The notes beneath the pieces were generated by a model. It ran no database searches. It saw only the letters and a list, made by a program, of their open reading frames with translations, and was not told where the DNA came from. Below, piece after piece: positions 11,686 through 29,210 of a stretch of 40,587 bases of DNA. Both the position numbers and the translations under genes were made by a program. How positions within the stretch are numbered: the first letter of the stretch is position 1; every line of letters starts with the position of its first letter. Location: positions 1 to 40,587 of the forward strand of contig JAGXBG010000002.1 of NCBI GenBank assembly GCA_018971215.1, in the 5' to 3' direction. The stretch is from Alphaproteobacteria bacterium. GTDB taxonomy: Bacteria; Pseudomonadota; Alphaproteobacteria; ATCC43930; CGMCC-115725.

Positions 11686-12039
11686 ATGGGATCCTGGGCG
11701 AGATTGCATCGATCGGATTTTGCCGCTGCGGCGCTGGCGTTTGCCGTGTTTCTTGCCGCCGTGGTCCCCCTTGCCAGCGCTGCCGCGCCGATCACCGTCA
11801 GCCAGCGCAACCGGCATTTCAATCCGGACATGCTGTCGGTCGCCGTGGGTAGCATCGTTCACATCGTCAACGACGACCGGGTGACCCACCACGTCTATGT
11901 TGATTCACCGACCATGAAGTTCGATTCCGGCGAGCAGCCGATGGGCACGACCGTGGATTTGGAATTCGACCACCCCGGCACGTACCAGGTGCTGTGCGCG
12001 ATCCATCCGACCATGCACCTGCAGGTGACGGTGAAATAG
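11686..12039 (+). CDS. Secreted cupredoxin (plastocyanin/azurin-like)
   Basis: About 117 residues from the ATG; a GTG at 11668 would add six. The N-terminus is a signal peptide (basic WARLHR, then a hydrophobic stretch to LASAAA), so the protein is probably periplasmic. The mature part has the type 1 copper ligand pattern: a His in VTHHVYVDS (residues 68-69) and a C-terminal Cys-x2-His-x2-Met (CAIHPTM; Cys104, His107, Met110). The family carries electrons. It is convergent, with a two-base gap, to a di-haem cytochrome c peroxidase gene, and small cupredoxins are known donors to such peroxidases; that pairing here is inference. No good ribosome-binding site is visible for either start. Confidence 0.82.
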   Translation: MGSWARLHRSDFAAAALAFAVFLAAVVPLASAAAPITVSQRNRHFNPDMLSVAVGSIVHIVNDDRVTHHVYVDSPTMKFDSGEQPMGTTVDLEFDHPGTYQVLCAIHPTMHLQVTVK

Positions 12040-12041
12040 CC

Positions 12042-13124
12042 TCAGCGTGGCAGGACCGGGACATCCACCGGTTTGGGATCGGACGTCAGGGTGTTGAGGA
12101 ACGCGATCAGATCGGCTTTTTCGCCGGCCGTCAGATGCAGCGGCTTGATGAAATCGGCGCGGCTCGGCCGATCGATGCCGCCGCGATCGTAAAGATCGAT
12201 GACGTCGGCGAGCGTCGCTTCCGAACCGTTATGCATATAGGGTGCGCGCCGCGCGACATCGCGCAACGTCGGCACCTTGAAGGCGTATTTGAGCTTGACG
12301 GTATTCGTAAACAGCCGTGCACGGCCGATATCGTCGCCGGTCGCGGTGCCGGCATCGTAGAAGCCTTCGTCCGTGAACGCCCAGCCCAGGTGACAGTTCG
12401 AGCAACCTGCTTTGCCCGTGAACAGGACGAAACCACGTTTGGCCGGCGCATCGATGGCCTTGTCGTCGCCGGCGACCCAGCGATCGAAGGGCGCGGGGCC
12501 CGAGACGATGGTGCGTTCGAACGTCGCCAGCGCGTCGGCGACATGTGCTTCGGTGATCGCACGGTCCGGATACGCCGCGGCAAACGCCGCCCGGTAGCCA
12601 GGGATCGCCGAAAGCGCGCGAATCAAATCGGTCGGTTTGCGGTTCATGATTCCCGGGTTGGTGATCGGCCCGGCGAATGCGACCGCCTCCAGCGAAGGGA
12701 AATGGCCGTCCCAGCCGAGGATCGGCGCCCAGGCGATGTTGAGCAGCGTCGGCGTGTGCGTCTTCATCTCCTGCGTGCCGACGCCGAGGCGCAACCCGTC
12801 GGTCCAAGACAGGCCGGGATTGTGACAGCTAGCGCAGGATTGCGTTCCGTTGCCCGACAGGATCGGATCCCAGAACAGCAACTCGCCGAGATGGGCCTTG
12901 GCCTTCGAGTACGGGTCGTCGGACGGGAACGGCGTCGCCTTCGGCCGCGCAAAATCCGCCTTCAGTTCGGCAAGCGTGGTTTGCGGCGGCGCTGCCGCGT
13001 CGGCCGAAGCGCCGGGCGGTCCGATGTGCAGCACCAGCACTGCGGCGGTGACGATCGGCGCCACCCACAACGCCCGCGACATCCAGCGGCGCACCCAGTT
13101 GCCGTCGATCTTGCGGATCAGCAT
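12042..13124 (-). CDS. Di-haem cytochrome c peroxidase / MauG-family protein
   Basis: 360 residues with an N-terminal hydrophobic signal or anchor (about residues 16-36), then two c-type haem sites: CASCH at 97-101 and CSNCH at 241-245. PYMHNGS (Met297) matches the conserved segment that supplies the Met ligand to the electron-transfer haem in bacterial peroxidases; MauG has Tyr instead, so peroxidase is favoured. These periplasmic enzymes reduce hydrogen peroxide using a small cytochrome or cupredoxin. The start at 13124 overlaps the end of the upstream histidine kinase gene by seven bases, which suggests coupled translation; an internal ATG at 13082 is an alternative. Convergent with the cupredoxin gene. 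Confidence 0.9.
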   Translation of the reverse strand: MLIRKIDGNWVRRWMSRALWVAPIVTAAVLVLHIGPPGASADAAAPPQTTLAELKADFARPKATPFPSDDPYSKAKAHLGELLFWDPILSGNGTQSCASCHNPGLSWTDGLRLGVGTQEMKTHTPTLLNIAWAPILGWDGHFPSLEAVAFAGPITNPGIMNRKPTDLIRALSAIPGYRAAFAAAYPDRAITEAHVADALATFERTIVSGPAPFDRWVAGDDKAIDAPAKRGFVLFTGKAGCSNCHLGWAFTDEGFYDAGTATGDDIGRARLFTNTVKLKYAFKVPTLRDVARRAPYMHNGSEATLADVIDLYDRGGIDRPSRADFIKPLHLTAGEKADLIAFLNTLTSDPKPVDVPVLPR

Positions 13125-15049
13125 GACGCGACCGTTGCCGTTTGCGGCGCCCGCACCGCTTCGGGAAGCAGCACGGTGACTGTCGTGCCTTGGCGGGGTG
13201 CGCTGGCGATCTCGAGTCGCCCGCCATGCAGCTCGATGATGCTCTTACACAATGGCAGGCCCATGCCGGTGCCTTCGTACCGGCGCGCCAGACTGCTGTC
13301 GACCTGGCTGAACGGCGACAAGGCCACCGGAATGTCCTCGGCACGCATGCCGATGCCCGTATCGGCAACCGACAGAGCAACAAAGCCGGCGCCGGCGCGT
13401 CGGGCGGAAAGCGTGATGTGTCCACCAGCGGGCGTGAACTTGACGGCGTTGGAGACCAGCTGCTGCAGAATGCGCCGCAAGCGCACCGGATCAGCCATCA
13501 ACCAAATCCCCGACGTGTCGGGCGCGACAGCCAGTGCAAGCTGTCCACGCTCGGCTTCGCGGGCGAAAAAGGTTGCGGCCTGTTCCATTGCCACGTGCGC
13601 CTCGGTCGGCTCGGGCATGATTTCGAGATTGCCACCCTCGCATTTGGCGAAATCGAGGATGTCGTTGATCATCTCGAGCAGGTGGCGGCCGCTGCGCATG
13701 ATGTCGTTCGCGAATTCCTTGTAGGACGGCTGCCCCACCGGACCGACCATCTCGCCGGCGATGATTTCGGAGAAGCCAATGACCGCGTTGAGCGGCGTGC
13801 GCAGCTCGTGACCCATGTTCGCCAGGAATTCGGTCTTGGCGCGATTGGCGGTCTCGGCCTGTTCCTTGGCCGCGCTCAGAGCGAGCTCGCGCTCTTTGAT
13901 CGCCGAGATGTCGCTAATGATCACGACAAAGCCGCCATCCGAAGTGACGCTGCGGCTCAGATGCAGCCAGCGAATGCCGTCAACGCACATTTCGCCGCGC
14001 GGCTGCGCCAGGGCGCTGTCGAGCATTTCGGGAAACGGTGCGCCCGGCGCAAGGCTGCCGGCGAGCGTCGGAAAGAACGCGGTGACCTGCGAATTCGCGA
14101 TCAGGATGCGACCGTTGGCGTCGGCCAGAACGACGCCCTCGGCACTGTTCTCGAGCGCGTTGATGAGGCGGTTCTGCGCCGAACGCCGGGCGGCGATCTC
14201 GCGTTCCATCATGCCGCGGATGTTGTCGCGCATGACCGCCATCGAGCCGAGCAGCTGGCCGAGTTCGTCGTTCCCGGCGGCGCCGATTTCGACGTCGAGT
14301 TCACCTTCAGCGATACGCCGGGCAGCCGACGACGCGGTTGCAATTGGTCGCACCATGTGCCGCGCCAACAACAGGGCAATAACGCCGCCGAGCAAGACCG
14401 CGGCCAGCGTCGCCGCGATACTGAGCGTGCGGTAACGCGCGATCGATGCCAATGCGGTTTCACGGAACTTGAAGCCGTCCTCCGCCGTCAGCTCGACCAG
14501 ATTGTCGAAGTCGTCGTCGATGCCTTTAGCGCGAGCGATCAGCGTTTCCCGATCGGCTTCGTCATCGGCTTGGTCGTCGATGCTGTTGATCAGCTCGCGG
14601 CGCAGTTTGTTCCAGTCGGTGATGGCGACGGCAGTGTCATGCGCCGCCGTGGCGGCGCGCGCCGATAGCGACCGGCCCTCGGTCACAGCCAAATCCTCGG
14701 CCACGGACGAAGCGAGGTCGTCCATGCGGGCATCGAGTTCCTGCTGGCGAGCCGGATCGCGCGCTTTCACTCGATCCGTCAAGGCAACTTCGATGGCGGT
14801 AAAGTTGGACAAGGCGAGCCGCGCGTAGCTGATCGACATCAGCGGCTTGTCGTAGGTCTCCACCACCAGCCGGCCGGAATTGACGACGCTGTTGACGGCA
14901 TAGAATCCGAGCAGCCCGGTCAAAGCGGCAAGCGCAAAAAACGCGAGCAAAATTTTGCCGCGGATCGTTATCCCCATCGTGCGGAAGAGCCGCGCGCCGG
15001 CTTGCGACCCGTTCGAAGCGCCTGCATGTAATTGCTGCGACACGCTCAT
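13118..15049 (-). CDS. Orphan PAS/HAMP sensor histidine kinase
   Basis: 643 residues. Membrane segments at about 33-52 and 209-229 flank a mostly helical periplasmic domain of about 155 residues, resembling four-helix-bundle sensors. A HAMP domain (about 230-282), a PAS-like domain (about 290-395) and the kinase core follow. The H-box is NMGHELRTPLN with phospho-acceptor His414. The N-box has Asn534 (LVSNAVKF). The G boxes are ADTGIGM and GTGMGLPLCKSI. No receiver domain is attached and no response-regulator gene is in the window, so the partner is elsewhere. The gene overlaps the cytochrome c peroxidase gene, suggesting the two work together; the signal is unknown. A hairpin touches its ribosome-binding site. 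Confidence 0.92.
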   Translation of the reverse strand: MSVSQQLHAGASNGSQAGARLFRTMGITIRGKILLAFFALAALTGLLGFYAVNSVVNSGRLVVETYDKPLMSISYARLALSNFTAIEVALTDRVKARDPARQQELDARMDDLASSVAEDLAVTEGRSLSARAATAAHDTAVAITDWNKLRRELINSIDDQADDEADRETLIARAKGIDDDFDNLVELTAEDGFKFRETALASIARYRTLSIAATLAAVLLGGVIALLLARHMVRPIATASSAARRIAEGELDVEIGAAGNDELGQLLGSMAVMRDNIRGMMEREIAARRSAQNRLINALENSAEGVVLADANGRILIANSQVTAFFPTLAGSLAPGAPFPEMLDSALAQPRGEMCVDGIRWLHLSRSVTSDGGFVVIISDISAIKERELALSAAKEQAETANRAKTEFLANMGHELRTPLNAVIGFSEIIAGEMVGPVGQPSYKEFANDIMRSGRHLLEMINDILDFAKCEGGNLEIMPEPTEAHVAMEQAATFFAREAERGQLALAVAPDTSGIWLMADPVRLRRILQQLVSNAVKFTPAGGHITLSARRAGAGFVALSVADTGIGMRAEDIPVALSPFSQVDSSLARRYEGTGMGLPLCKSIIELHGGRLEIASAPRQGTTVTVLLPEAVRAPQTATVASC

Positions 15050-17156: not shown

Positions 17157-18179
17157 TCACCAAATCACCGTTCCATAAAGGATGGCGTGCAATCCCCAGT
17201 AGCCGGCGACATAAGCGGCCAGCGCGCCACCATAGGCGATCGGCGCCACGATCGGCGGATGCCGCGCCTCGGGTTTCTCGTCGACCAGGATACCGAGCAA
17301 GATGACGATGATCATCGAGTGCCCGATCGCGTCGATCTTGCCGAAATCGAACACCGCGCTCACGAACATCATAGTCAGAACCAAGGCGCCCAACCGGCGC
17401 ACGAGCGGCGAGCATACCAGCGCGAAGGCGAGACCGAATTCGAGTACGCCAGCCGACGTCATATAAAAATGCGGATTGAGATCCATTGTGATCTCGGGAT
17501 GCGTCGCGAGCACCGGATAGGTCCAGTCGGGGTACGCCCATTTCTCCATCGCCGCCCACATCAGCGTCAGCGCCGCCGCCCAACGCGCGACGTCGAGCGG
17601 GCGCAATCCAAAAAAGTCCTGATCAAGTCCCGTGAGCGCGAGATAGGCGGCAATGCCCAGGAAGATCGGATAGTCGAGCATGTGGAAAAGGCCGTAGGCG
17701 TAAACGCCGTAGGCATAGAGGAAGGCGATGCCGAGCGCCGACAGCGGCAGCGTGCGCCGCCAGAACATGCCGATTGCCATCGCGAGTTGAAGCCACGGAA
17801 TGAACCGCCAGTCGGTCTTGAGCTCGGGCGTCATGATAATGTTGCCCAAAACCCAAAGCGCGACGAAGAAACACGCACCGCCGCCGCGGTACAGGGCCTC
17901 GATGCGCGGCTTGAGTCCGGCGCCGAGCCGGTCGAGCGAACGCAGGATCGTGGCCCCAAGTTGATGCCGTTCGAGATGGCCGAGCAGCAGCACGATAAGC
18001 GCGGCCGTGACATTGAACTGCCAGAACGCCGCATCGAGCACCAGATGCAACGGCATCGGCTGTTGCGGCACCGAGTAGTGCGAGAACCATTTGACATGTG
18101 CGTCGGCAACGCCAGGCTCGAGCGCCAGCCCGGCGGCCATCAATGCAATTCGCCTCAAATTGTTTCTATTAATCCGCAT
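17157..18179 (-). CDS. DoxX-like polytopic membrane protein with mature N-terminal His
   Basis: About 340 residues with nine or ten predicted membrane helices. The start at 18179 begins a likely signal peptide (MRINRNNLRRIALMAAG...) with a plausible cleavage site after VADA, leaving HVKWFSHYSV as the mature N-terminus. Function is unknown to me. The general look, with short helices and the late segment GHSMIIVILLGILVDE, recalls DoxX-family proteins. Further His residues occur early (SHYS, PLHL, GHLERH). An upstream start at 18203 would add eight residues. The ClC gene follows on the same strand after 80 bases, so the two may be co-transcribed. The 52-residue peptide gene is divergent upstream. 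Confidence 0.7.
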   Translation of the reverse strand: MRINRNNLRRIALMAAGLALEPGVADAHVKWFSHYSVPQQPMPLHLVLDAAFWQFNVTAALIVLLLGHLERHQLGATILRSLDRLGAGLKPRIEALYRGGGACFFVALWVLGNIIMTPELKTDWRFIPWLQLAMAIGMFWRRTLPLSALGIAFLYAYGVYAYGLFHMLDYPIFLGIAAYLALTGLDQDFFGLRPLDVARWAAALTLMWAAMEKWAYPDWTYPVLATHPEITMDLNPHFYMTSAGVLEFGLAFALVCSPLVRRLGALVLTMMFVSAVFDFGKIDAIGHSMIIVILLGILVDEKPEARHPPIVAPIAYGGALAAYVAGYWGLHAILYGTVIW

Positions 18180-18308
18180 GATGCCCGGCTGCTCCCGCTT
18201 CACGAAAGCGCGCGATCGCGCAGAACCAACGTGCCGAACAGCGGCGAAACGAAATCTTTACCGCCCTGTTGGATAACAGAGCGACCGATATCGTGCACGG
18301 AGGCGACG

Positions 18309-27087: not shown

Positions 27088-28440
27088 TTGCGCATGAAGA
27101 TCGTCCTCAAGATCATTTGCCTGCTGCTGGCGACGAACGCCGTGCTCGTCCGACAGGCTGTGGCCGACGGCGATTCGCCGAACCTCATCCGCGACGTCGA
27201 GATCGAGACGATGCTCCGCACGTTCGAGATGCCGGTGTGGCGTGCGGCCGGGCTCGATCCGAACGCCATGCACTTCTATATCGTCCAGGACCCGCAGCTG
27301 AACTCGTTCGTTGCCGGCGGCCAGAACATCTTCATGAATACCGGCACGATCCTGCGCGCCGACCGTCCGAACGAGCTGGTCGGCATCATGGCGCACGAAA
27401 CCGGCCACATCGCCGGCGGCCATCTCGCACGCTTCGCGACCGAAATGCACGACGCGACGATCAAGGCGATCATCGCCATGGCGGTCGGCGCCGCAGCCTC
27501 TGTCGTCGGCCACGACTATCGCGGCATCGGCGGCGCAATGGCGGGCGGCGAAGGCGTCGGCGAGCGTTCGTTCCTGTCGTTCTCGGTCGCGCAGGAAGGT
27601 GCCGCTGACCACGCCGCTATCAAATTCCTCGACGCAACCCATCAGTCATCCAAGGGCCTGCTCGATTTCTTCAAAATCCTCGAGCCCGAGGAGCTGTTGT
27701 CGCCGGCGCAACAAGACCCCTATATGCGTACCCACCCGTTGACCACCGAACGTATCGCGTATATCGAACAACACGTCGCTCAATCGCCCTACACCAACAA
27801 TCCTGATCCGCCGCAATGGATTCCGATGCTGGCTGACGTGAAAGCCAAGCTGCGCGGCTTCCTCGATCCGCCGGAAAAGACCCTGGAGAAATACCCCACG
27901 ACGGATCAATCGGTACCCGCGCGCTACGCCCGCGCCGTCGCCTATTACCGGATTCCGGAAGTGGATAAAGCGCTGGCAGAGATCGACAGCCTGCTGCACG
28001 AACAGCCGGACAACCCGTATTTCTGGGAGCTCAAAGGCCAGATTCTGTTCGACAATGGGCGCGTCGCCGAATCCATAGGGCCCTATCAACGCGCCGTCGC
28101 GCTCAACAACGCGCCGTTGATGCGCGTCGAACTCGCGCAAGTCGAGCTCGAGACCCAGGATCCGGCGCTGTTGCCCAAGGCGCTGGCGCAACTCTCCGAC
28201 GCCGTCAATTTCGAGCGCGACAATCCCGACGCGTGGCATTTCCTGGCAATCGCCTATGGCCGCAGCAACAATATCGGCATGGCGGCGTTGAGCCTCGCCG
28301 AGGAAGGTATGGCAAACGGCGATTACAAGACGGCGATCCAGCAGTCTCAACGCGCCCGCCAGATTCTGCCGACCGGACCGCAACGCCAGCGCGCCGAAGA
28401 TATCGAAGCCGAAGCCAAGCGAATTCGCGACGCGTCCTAA
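27088..28440 (+). CDS. BepA-like M48 metallopeptidase with TPR domain
   Basis: 450 residues. A signal peptide (MKIVLKIICLLLATNAVLVRQAVA) precedes a zinc peptidase domain with HETGH (His103, Glu104, His107) and a third ligand in QEGAADHAA. The C-terminal half is helical with tetratricopeptide-like repeats (YFWELKGQILFDNGRVAESIGPY onward). This architecture matches BepA/YfgC, a periplasmic protease-chaperone for outer-membrane proteins such as LptD. The TTG at 27088 is eight bases after GGAG, so it may be the true start; ATG 27094 is the other option and changes only two residues. The DsbA-like gene starts 18 bases after its stop, so the two form an operon. Confidence 0.9.
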   Translation: MRMKIVLKIICLLLATNAVLVRQAVADGDSPNLIRDVEIETMLRTFEMPVWRAAGLDPNAMHFYIVQDPQLNSFVAGGQNIFMNTGTILRADRPNELVGIMAHETGHIAGGHLARFATEMHDATIKAIIAMAVGAAASVVGHDYRGIGGAMAGGEGVGERSFLSFSVAQEGAADHAAIKFLDATHQSSKGLLDFFKILEPEELLSPAQQDPYMRTHPLTTERIAYIEQHVAQSPYTNNPDPPQWIPMLADVKAKLRGFLDPPEKTLEKYPTTDQSVPARYARAVAYYRIPEVDKALAEIDSLLHEQPDNPYFWELKGQILFDNGRVAESIGPYQRAVALNNAPLMRVELAQVELETQDPALLPKALAQLSDAVNFERDNPDAWHFLAIAYGRSNNIGMAALSLAEEGMANGDYKTAIQQSQRARQILPTGPQRQRAEDIEAEAKRIRDAS

Positions 28441-28457
28441 TGGACGGAAGGATCGAA

Positions 28458-29210
28458 ATGCTCAAATTCACCATCGCCGCTTTGATCGCCCTCGCCGTCG
28501 CGCTCGGCGGCACGGCGCCCGCCGCGGCGCAGTCGTTCTCGCCGACGCAGAAGCAGGAAATCGACCGCTTGATCCACGATTACCTGCAACAGCATCCCGA
28601 AGCCGTCATGGATGCGCTCAAGGCGGCGCAACAACAGGCCGAGGCCGCGAGAACCGCCGCGGCGAAACGGACGATTGCCGCGCGGCGCGACGAACTGCTG
28701 CACGATCCCAATTCGGTCGTTGCCGGCAATCCCAACGGCGACGTCACGCTGGTCGAGTTCTTCGACTATCGCTGCCCATACTGCAAAGCGATCGAGCCGT
28801 CGCTCGAAGCGCTGATCAAGGAAGACGGCAATCTCCGCATCGTCTACAAGGAATTCCCGATCCTCGGTCCGACGTCGGTGGTCGCGTCGCGCGTCGCCAT
28901 CGCCGCCCGTCAACAGGGCAAGTACCCCGAATTTCACGCCCGGATGATGGCGCTCAAAGGCAACATCGATAACGAGGCGGTGATGACGGTGGCCGAGGCC
29001 AGCGGCCTCGACCTCACCAAACTCAAACGTGACATGGGGGCGCCGTCCATCGGTCAGACCATCCAACGCAATTACGCCCTCGCCGACGCCCTTGGCATCG
29101 ACGCGACGCCGGCGCTGGTGATCGGCGATCAGCTCACCATGGGCGCGGTCGATATCGACAGCCTGCGACGGCTCATCGCCGACGCGCGCAAGAACAAGAA
29201 GGGCAGCTAG
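28458..29210 (+). CDS. DsbA/Com1-type thiol-disulfide oxidoreductase
   Basis: About 250 residues. A clear signal peptide (MLKFTIAALIALAVALGG to AAAQ) is followed by a helical segment and a thioredoxin fold with CPYC at 106-109 and a cis-proline in GIDATPALVIGD. Such periplasmic proteins form or isomerise disulfide bonds; the helical N-terminal extension resembles Com1/ScsC-type proteins. The ATG at 28458 is preferred because GGAAGGA lies just upstream and the signal peptide begins there; an ATG at 28440 overlapping the upstream stop would add six residues. It follows the M48 gene in an apparent operon. Its stop shares CTAG (29207-29210) with the convergent SRAP gene. Confidence 0.93.
   Translation: MLKFTIAALIALAVALGGTAPAAAQSFSPTQKQEIDRLIHDYLQQHPEAVMDALKAAQQQAEAARTAAAKRTIAARRDELLHDPNSVVAGNPNGDVTLVEFFDYRCPYCKAIEPSLEALIKEDGNLRIVYKEFPILGPTSVVASRVAIAARQQGKYPEFHARMMALKGNIDNEAVMTVAEASGLDLTKLKRDMGAPSIGQTIQRNYALADALGIDATPALVIGDQLTMGAVDIDSLRRLIADARKNKKGS

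Follow-up and report, generated by a model that had tools for sequence, protein, structure and literature searches.

The DNA analysed here (the window) comprises positions 1 to 40,587 of contig JAGXBG010000002.1 from an alphaproteobacterial assembly (GCA_018971215.1). It contains a three-gene locus encoding a cupredoxin, a di-haem protein, and a sensor histidine kinase, with the following features:

11686..12039, plus strand: cupredoxin of 117 amino acids, with a signal-peptide-like N terminus (by eye) and the type 1 copper ligands His, Cys, His, and Met (THH, C..H..M).
12042..13124, minus strand: di-haem protein of 360 amino acids, MauG-like by sequence, with haem motifs CASCH and CSNCH and a signal-peptide-like N terminus (by eye).
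12189..12191, minus strand: Tyr312, aligned with the axial Tyr of MauG, where classical peroxidases have Met (alignments to 4aal and annotated MauG).
12645..12713, minus strand: distal haem pocket segment W138 to M160, in which the Trp is kept, the Gln position is Val148, and the Glu position is Ile159, aligned to the annotated MauG of Methylobacterium DM1 (L058).
13118..13124, minus strand: ATGCTGA, the 7-base overlap of the kinase stop with the di-haem start, read from the sequence.
13118..15049, minus strand: sensor histidine kinase of 643 amino acids, with two membrane helices (by eye), a 4HB periplasmic domain, HAMP, a PAS-like segment, HisKA, and HATPase_c (Pfam and translation).
14429..14908, minus strand: periplasmic four-helix sensor domain, residues 48 to 207, of a cupredoxin-linked subfamily (alignments A2 and A3; predicted model).
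14801..14857, minus strand: helix-1 motif TYDKPLMSISYARLALSNF, residues 65 to 83, from an alignment of 37 sequences; helix 1 is broken at residues 65 to 67 in the model.

The kinase is the upstream gene of its pair: its stop codon TGA lies at 13118 to 13120, and the di-haem ATG lies at 13122 to 13124. The cupredoxin gene begins with ATG at 11686, and its stop codon ends at 12039, leaving only positions 12040 and 12041 before the convergent di-haem stop. An earlier interpretation made from the DNA letters (the sequence-only reading) had reported both the 7-base overlap and the 2-base distance, and both are exact. The cupredoxin scored over the Pfam cut-offs for PF13473 (3.5e-08) and PF00127 (3.7e-06), and its ligand set and fold family are those of type 1 copper cupredoxins; against the amicyanin model TIGR02657 it reached 28.3 bits, short of the 110.2-bit cut-off, and it is not assigned to that family. 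Pfam matches in the kinase were 4HB_MCP_1 (1.2e-11), HAMP, HisKA, HATPase_c, and a borderline PAS_7, with no receiver domain. No response-regulator domain was found among the 16 window open reading frames run against Pfam, which agrees with the earlier description of the kinase as an orphan as far as those 16 frames reach.

Conservation of the triplet was examined in close relatives. A search of the order (43 genomes) found the di-haem protein in all four genomes of the genus, where the relatives are 79 to 85% identical, and, at 62%, in one genome of another genus (L044, genome G042; 58 to 61% identity in the triplet). CCP_MauG matches numbered one in each genus genome and five in G042. In all five genomes with a close orthologue, the window's own included, the kinase gene adjoins the di-haem gene and the cupredoxin gene is convergent with it. 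Overlap or tight spacing was likewise kept in five of five: ATGCTGA in the window and L042, GTGCTGA in L043, TGATG in L041, and a 14-nucleotide gap in L044. Within the genus the visible flanking genes are syntenic as well, which makes its four genomes weak evidence. L044 retains the three genes in another setting: its 5.7-kb kinase-side flank gave no match to clcB, and the other side is a contig end.

Next, the linkage of sensor and cupredoxin was examined across 385 genomes of the class. The cupredoxin profile (A1, E 1e-7) gave 78 matches in 56 genomes; the sensor profile (A3, E 1e-6), built from six sensor domains of the order, all from kinases, gave 45 matches in 41 genomes. A cupredoxin match lay within 6 kb of 35 of the 45 sensor matches (within 1.5 kb for 29 and on the same strand for 31), compared to 0.20 expected from genome sizes. 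With the window excluded, which was the sole profile row from a genome of this draw, the count was 34 of 44. As a control, 4HB_MCP_1 was searched over the same genomes and gave at least 150 matches. Four of the matches listed were the sensor family itself; among the 146 other 4HB_MCP_1 domains listed, one lay within 6 kb of a cupredoxin, and 58 were in cupredoxin-bearing genomes.

The same linkage was found on named contigs of GTDB, where a sensor-only profile (A4) identified 43 loci and a cupredoxin was present in the fetched flank of 40 (34 of 37 when the six query-alignment rows were left out). By their titles these contigs are alphaproteobacterial or proteobacterial, mostly from metagenome assemblies; the named strains among them include Robiginitomaculum antarcticum DSM 21748, Denitrobaculum tricleocarpae R148, and Pelagibius sp. 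Alg239-R121. A phylum search with the sensor found it in 9 of 349 genomes, the window's own and eight of the same class, and since the 29 genomes listed were all its own or of the same class, other classes were perhaps hardly sampled. Five plasmid records contained a cupredoxin match. Chance adjacency and mere synteny of the genus are ruled out by L044, by the class-wide and named-genome tests, and by the 4HB_MCP_1 control. The sequence-only reading had treated the three genes as a unit, to be given up if related genomes lacked the adjacency; the unit stands.

To compare loci, 104 were scanned. Removal of 11 duplicate contigs (among them L181, which lacks a cupredoxin and whose twin, L143, lies outside the set), 17 loci without a sensor match (14 cupredoxins and 3 lone di-haem genes, L086, L092, and L093), and 2 without a cupredoxin left 74 loci, some of them close relatives. 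The copper ligands were present in 85 of the 88 cupredoxins of the set, two of the misses being truncated and one a pattern artefact. An N-terminal motif, Q..[KRHN].[FY], was found in 59 of 74 linked and 4 of 14 unlinked cupredoxins. A mirror-tree comparison of cupredoxin with sensor gave r 0.81 over 74 pairs (the largest of 2000 permutations was 0.17), a value that shared descent alone can give; for pairs of different output type, r was 0.24. In L105 (one genome), kinase and cupredoxin lie in a single frame, which may be a real fusion, with a hydrophobic stretch before the cupredoxin, or a lost stop; L142, of the same genus, had no cupredoxin match in the stretch read. The kinase homologues in L045, L046, and L036 (42 to 44% identity; L036 and L156 are the same contig) adjoin a cupredoxin homologue, with no di-haem match.

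The sensor domain constitutes a distinct four-helix subfamily with the helix-1 motif YD.PL.[AS]I.[FY]AR.A...F. Residues D67, L70, R77, A79, and F83 (window kinase numbering) are invariant in the 37 aligned domains, and D119, L120, R126, and W146 occur in at least 90% of them. The window domain belongs to 4HB_MCP_1 (44.9 bits, with a cut-off of 27 bits), and its predicted model is a four-helix bundle (predicted local distance difference test [pLDDT], 90.0; predicted template modelling score [pTM], 0.80), with the break in helix 1 falling inside the motif. The Pfam cut-off is also reached by L085, L087, L088, L126, and L184; the other tested members fall below it or give no match, so that the members are connected through the alignment and the A2 profile. 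Foldseek matched the model to chemoreceptor ligand domains and to the TorS and LytS sensor domains. The subfamily thus shares fold and Pfam family with chemoreceptors such as Tar, Tsr, PcaY, and Vc1313, which bind small ligands, but differs from them by its own invariant residues and its cupredoxin neighbour. Clustering with unrelated chemoreceptor-like sensors had been named beforehand as part of a refutation. The domain does fall among chemoreceptor-type four-helix domains, but as a subfamily of its own, whose chemoreceptor members are themselves cupredoxin linked.

Five outputs occur on this sensor subfamily: kinase, hybrid kinase, chemoreceptor, GGDEF-EAL protein, and nucleotide cyclase. 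Pfam identified EAL with GGDEF in L082, L103, and L090; MCPsignal in L083, L085, L087, L088, L089, L126, L136, L184, and L191; and 13 hybrid kinases (HisKA, HATPase, and receiver) in L112, L114 to L118, L120 to L123, L129, L132, and L135. In L119 (6159-8127), the sensor domain is carried by an adenylate/guanylate cyclase with a cupredoxin gene adjoining. The outputs of the remaining loci were assigned by short motif patterns. Six changes of output type were counted on a tree built from 76 sensors, the minimum for five types being four; the tree was made by a quick method in which 25 of 73 inner branches are weak, and the starred branches by themselves require fewer changes. On it, the window sensor groups with kinase and GGDEF-EAL members. 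The sensor subfamily and the cupredoxin are co-inherited through these changes of output. Since chemoreceptors, cyclases, and GGDEF-EAL proteins do not control the transcription of neighbouring genes, this argues for the cupredoxin as an input to the receptor. CheY-like single-domain receiver genes (Pfam tested in L112) were also seen near the hybrid kinases of L112, L114, L115, L117, L118, L120 to L123, L129, L132, and L135.

The haem partner is exchangeable as well. A member of one of four unrelated haem protein families lay within 3 kb of the cupredoxin in 41 of the 74 loci: MauG-like in 19, truncated globin in 19, catalase in 1 (L106, where it takes the place of the haem protein), and cytochrome P460 in 2. 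These calls used PF01152, DUF3034, PF00199, and PF16694 on one to four members each, with the rest assigned by similarity and secretion judged by eye. MauG-like genes accompany chemoreceptors (12 of 16) and the group of the window, and globin-family genes accompany kinases (18) and one GGDEF-EAL protein. Di-haem protein and cupredoxin are encoded in a single frame in L056, L091, and L094; a structure search with the L091 fusion matched it to di-haem peroxidases, and its cupredoxin end to amicyanin and further cupredoxins. The di-haem gene was rejected as a general partner of the sensor, 55 of 74 loci having none within 3 kb. The sequence-only reading had made a peroxidase the partner of the kinase: the adjacency is kept in close relatives, but across the family the wide partner is the cupredoxin.

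Several further arrangements of these genes were noted. DUF3034-type, truncated-globin, and cupredoxin genes are consecutive in L046 (5253-6992), L100 (6182-7934), L101 (7538-9272), and L107 (8172-9654); a sensor kinase follows in the first three and not in L107, and in L105 the first two genes are divergent from the kinase. This set is not known to have a stated role. Pairs of cupredoxin and cytochrome P460 occur in L133 (7365-8257) and L137 (7715-8603), with no match to the sensor family in the stretch. In L093 (6693-8171), a di-haem gene is followed by a 165-residue helical, apparently membrane-anchored protein resembling the sensor domain without an output. On a plasmid of Rhizobium sp. 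CIAT894 (L057, 5941-8740), a di-haem relative (46%) lies 10 bases before a chemoreceptor gene, and similar ones are found on other Rhizobium plasmids.

We then considered whether the window di-haem protein is an active peroxidase, as had been proposed. It is the sole CCP_MauG match of its assembly (PF03150, 2.2e-45), and its best NCBIfam match is MauG (TIGR03791), at 301.6 bits, below the equivalog cut-off of 443.85. Tyr312 aligns with the Tyr of annotated MauG and with a Met of the classical peroxidase 4aal that is presumably the axial ligand of the second haem there. By sequence, therefore, the second haem has the Tyr-His ligation of MauG and lacks the Met-His ligation described as characteristic of classical bacterial di-haem peroxidases in the accessible part of PMC6405878. 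The protein retains its two haem motifs, the Tyr ligand, and the bridging Trp. Val and Ile stand in place of the distal Gln and Glu common to MauG and classical peroxidases. In the accessible part of PMC10094543, the Neisseria enzyme has Trp98, Gln108, and Glu118, a spacing of 10 and 10 that fits our alignment, and single variants at Gln or Glu of bacterial peroxidases are cited from another study as inactive.

The same positions were compared in related proteins. The window protein and seven relatives (L041 to L044, L082, L090, and L081) all have Val at the Gln position and Ile, Asn, or Leu at the Glu position (8 of 8 for each); all are linked to a kinase or a GGDEF-EAL protein, the L081 gene adjoining a cut GGDEF-EAL frame. 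Both residues are kept in 14 of 14 chemoreceptor-linked proteins (L057 and L086 without a cupredoxin), 3 of 3 cupredoxin-fused proteins, and 2 of 2 mau-operon proteins. These alignments indicate that the window protein is MauG-like rather than a classical peroxidase and that its lineage probably gave up peroxide turnover. The earlier assignment as an active peroxidase is probably wrong, and the absence of Gln and Glu in all eight, together with the cited inactivity of such variants (PMC10094543), makes it doubtful that the window kinase reads peroxide through this enzyme.

The di-haem protein resembles CcpA, MacA, and BCCP in its family, its two CxxCH motifs, and its best PDB sequence matches, but differs in having Tyr for the axial Met and no catalytic Gln or Glu. 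With the mau cluster (amicyanin and MauG) it shares a Tyr-ligated di-haem protein encoded together with a cupredoxin, and it is 45.8% identical to the annotated MauG of Methylobacterium DM1; unlike that cluster, it has lost the distal Gln and Glu and adjoins a kinase. No match to mauA (methylamine dehydrogenase, PF02975) was found in any of the five genomes, which as drafts may be incomplete, while two of two positive controls were detected; a mau-operon function of the unit was rejected on this ground. BthA and other MauG-like enzymes outside mau operons likewise have Tyr-His ligation, but BthA has retained the catalytic Glu, and Ser replaces its bridging Trp (accessible part of PMC6405878). 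The terms sensor and chemotaxis are absent from that part of the BthA text, and no link was found in the accessible part of PMC10613068.

A separate set of di-haem proteins, Met ligated and 32 to 35% identical, was seen in L051 (1-1697), L052 (6476-9954), L053 (796-3398), and L055 (6669-10201), where each gene overlaps the following receptor gene by 4 bases. By Pfam, the L052 receptor has DAHL, kinase, and weak receiver domains, and the other three look alike by eye. Glu is replaced by Ile or Leu in 4 of 4, and Gln is kept in 3 of 4. The set and its DAHL-type receptors are perhaps a second sensor-coupled pseudo-peroxidase.

One further gene of the window may belong to the unit:

17157..18203, minus strand: possible accessory membrane protein of 348 amino acids, adjoining clcB, with a weak DoxX match (PF07681, 0.0016) below the cut-off.

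Outside the genus, three loci have a homologue of this protein next to the unit (L082, 49%; L090, 50%; and L036, 44%), and the protein may be an accessory of the unit.

TorT-TorS and XylFII-LytS provide a precedent for the mechanism that we favour: in both, the four-helix domain of a kinase takes its input through a periplasmic partner protein. The structures of the TorS and LytS sensor domains were solved in complex with TorT and XylFII (PDB titles). As in those systems, the window kinase has a periplasmic four-helix domain, and a dedicated secreted partner is encoded with it; their partner is a solute-binding protein, whereas here it is a protein of the copper electron carrier type, with varied outputs and accompanying haem proteins. 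We infer, with about an even chance of being right, that the cupredoxin is the periplasmic partner of the sensor and reports a redox or copper state, and that the haem protein exchanges electrons with it. The kinase would belong to a family of transmembrane receptors, each having a secreted cupredoxin dedicated to its periplasmic four-helix domain. That cupredoxin would dock on the domain and report its own state, most likely oxidised versus reduced copper, as set by electron exchange with the haem protein. In the window, this would be the MauG-like protein, translated in step with the kinase and acting as a redox relay or a haem-based receptor. HAMP and then the PAS-like segment would carry the signal to HisKA, from which it would reach an unlinked response regulator.

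A number of observations weigh against this reading. Ten of the 45 class sensors (L140 to L148 and L048) have no nearby cupredoxin, with no match in their stretches even at E 10, and the named loci L179, L181, and L182 (the last cut by a contig end) lack one as well. In 33 of 74 loci, including all 13 with hybrid kinases and the one cyclase locus, no member of the four haem families was found within 3 kb of the cupredoxin. The L057 di-haem and chemoreceptor genes have no cupredoxin annotated beside them, and that chemoreceptor gives no 4HB_MCP_1 match. Loss of the Glu is also seen outside sensor-coupled proteins, in L098 (Gly), L092 (Asp), and, by eye, L054, which have no overlapping receptor gene; L050 keeps the Glu. 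The Foldseek matches are weak (best E 7.1e-3), and helical bundles score high by arrangement alone, so that the resemblance to TorS and LytS is a precedent, not proof. The predicted fold of the natural L091 fusion (pLDDT 67.1, pTM 0.50) is too poor for an interface to be read.

Three other explanations were weighed. In the first, which we consider unlikely, the cupredoxin is read as copper loaded versus empty, and the receptor monitors copper in the periplasm and not redox flux. The copper ligands are kept, the partner common to all output types is a copper protein, and the window encodes a DsbA-like protein with an ScsC_N copper-resistance domain (28440-29207); copper sensing does not explain why haem proteins of four families recur as additional partners, and the neighbours viewed showed no copper pump or chaperone, with no search aimed at them. 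It is rather improbable that the kinase reads a small molecule in the four-helix pocket and that the cupredoxin and di-haem genes are regulatory targets or part of a shared metabolic theme. The receptors closest in fold were solved with D-arginine (8bsa), protocatechuate (6s33), and citrate (6its) bound (PDB titles), and the sensors without a nearby cupredoxin fit this explanation; the cupredoxin nevertheless stays with the sensor domain when the output is one without transcriptional control, and it shares a frame with the kinase in L105. Peroxide sensing, in which an active di-haem peroxidase reduces H2O2 with cupredoxin electrons and either the enzyme or the oxidised donor is read by the kinase, is quite improbable for the window given the loss of Gln and Glu in 8 of 8, even with the haem motifs, bridging Trp, and Tyr ligand in place, but it may still be valid for the chemoreceptor-linked group, in which both residues are kept, and the catalase-family protein of L106 would suit it.

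Returning to the cupredoxin as the partner of the sensor, a broader and more tentative proposal, which we think doubtful as a whole, is a modular haem-copper relay. The haem protein would sense a gas, an oxidant, or electron flow and hand its state on to the cupredoxin, which would be the diffusible ligand of a dedicated four-helix receptor that can be wired to a phosphorelay, chemotaxis, cyclic di-GMP, or a nucleotide cyclase. The di-haem enzyme would be a pseudoenzyme receptor in the forms linked to a kinase or GGDEF-EAL protein, and the Met-ligated, DAHL-coupled family would have taken the same road.

Periplasmic receptors read through a partner are not known to use partners other than solute-binding proteins; here the partner is of the electron carrier type and is conserved through exchanges of outputs and haem partners. 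No description of the unit was found in the titles and abstract beginnings listed by searches of open-access literature, subscription papers lying outside that coverage. Together, these results suggest that redox may be sensed at the bacterial surface in a way not described before. If the reading is true, a blue copper protein serves bacteria as a redox ligand, an input would be gained for a family of receptors that have none assigned (kinases, chemoreceptors, GGDEF-EAL proteins, and a cyclase), and the adjoining globin-family and DUF3034 proteins would gain a role.

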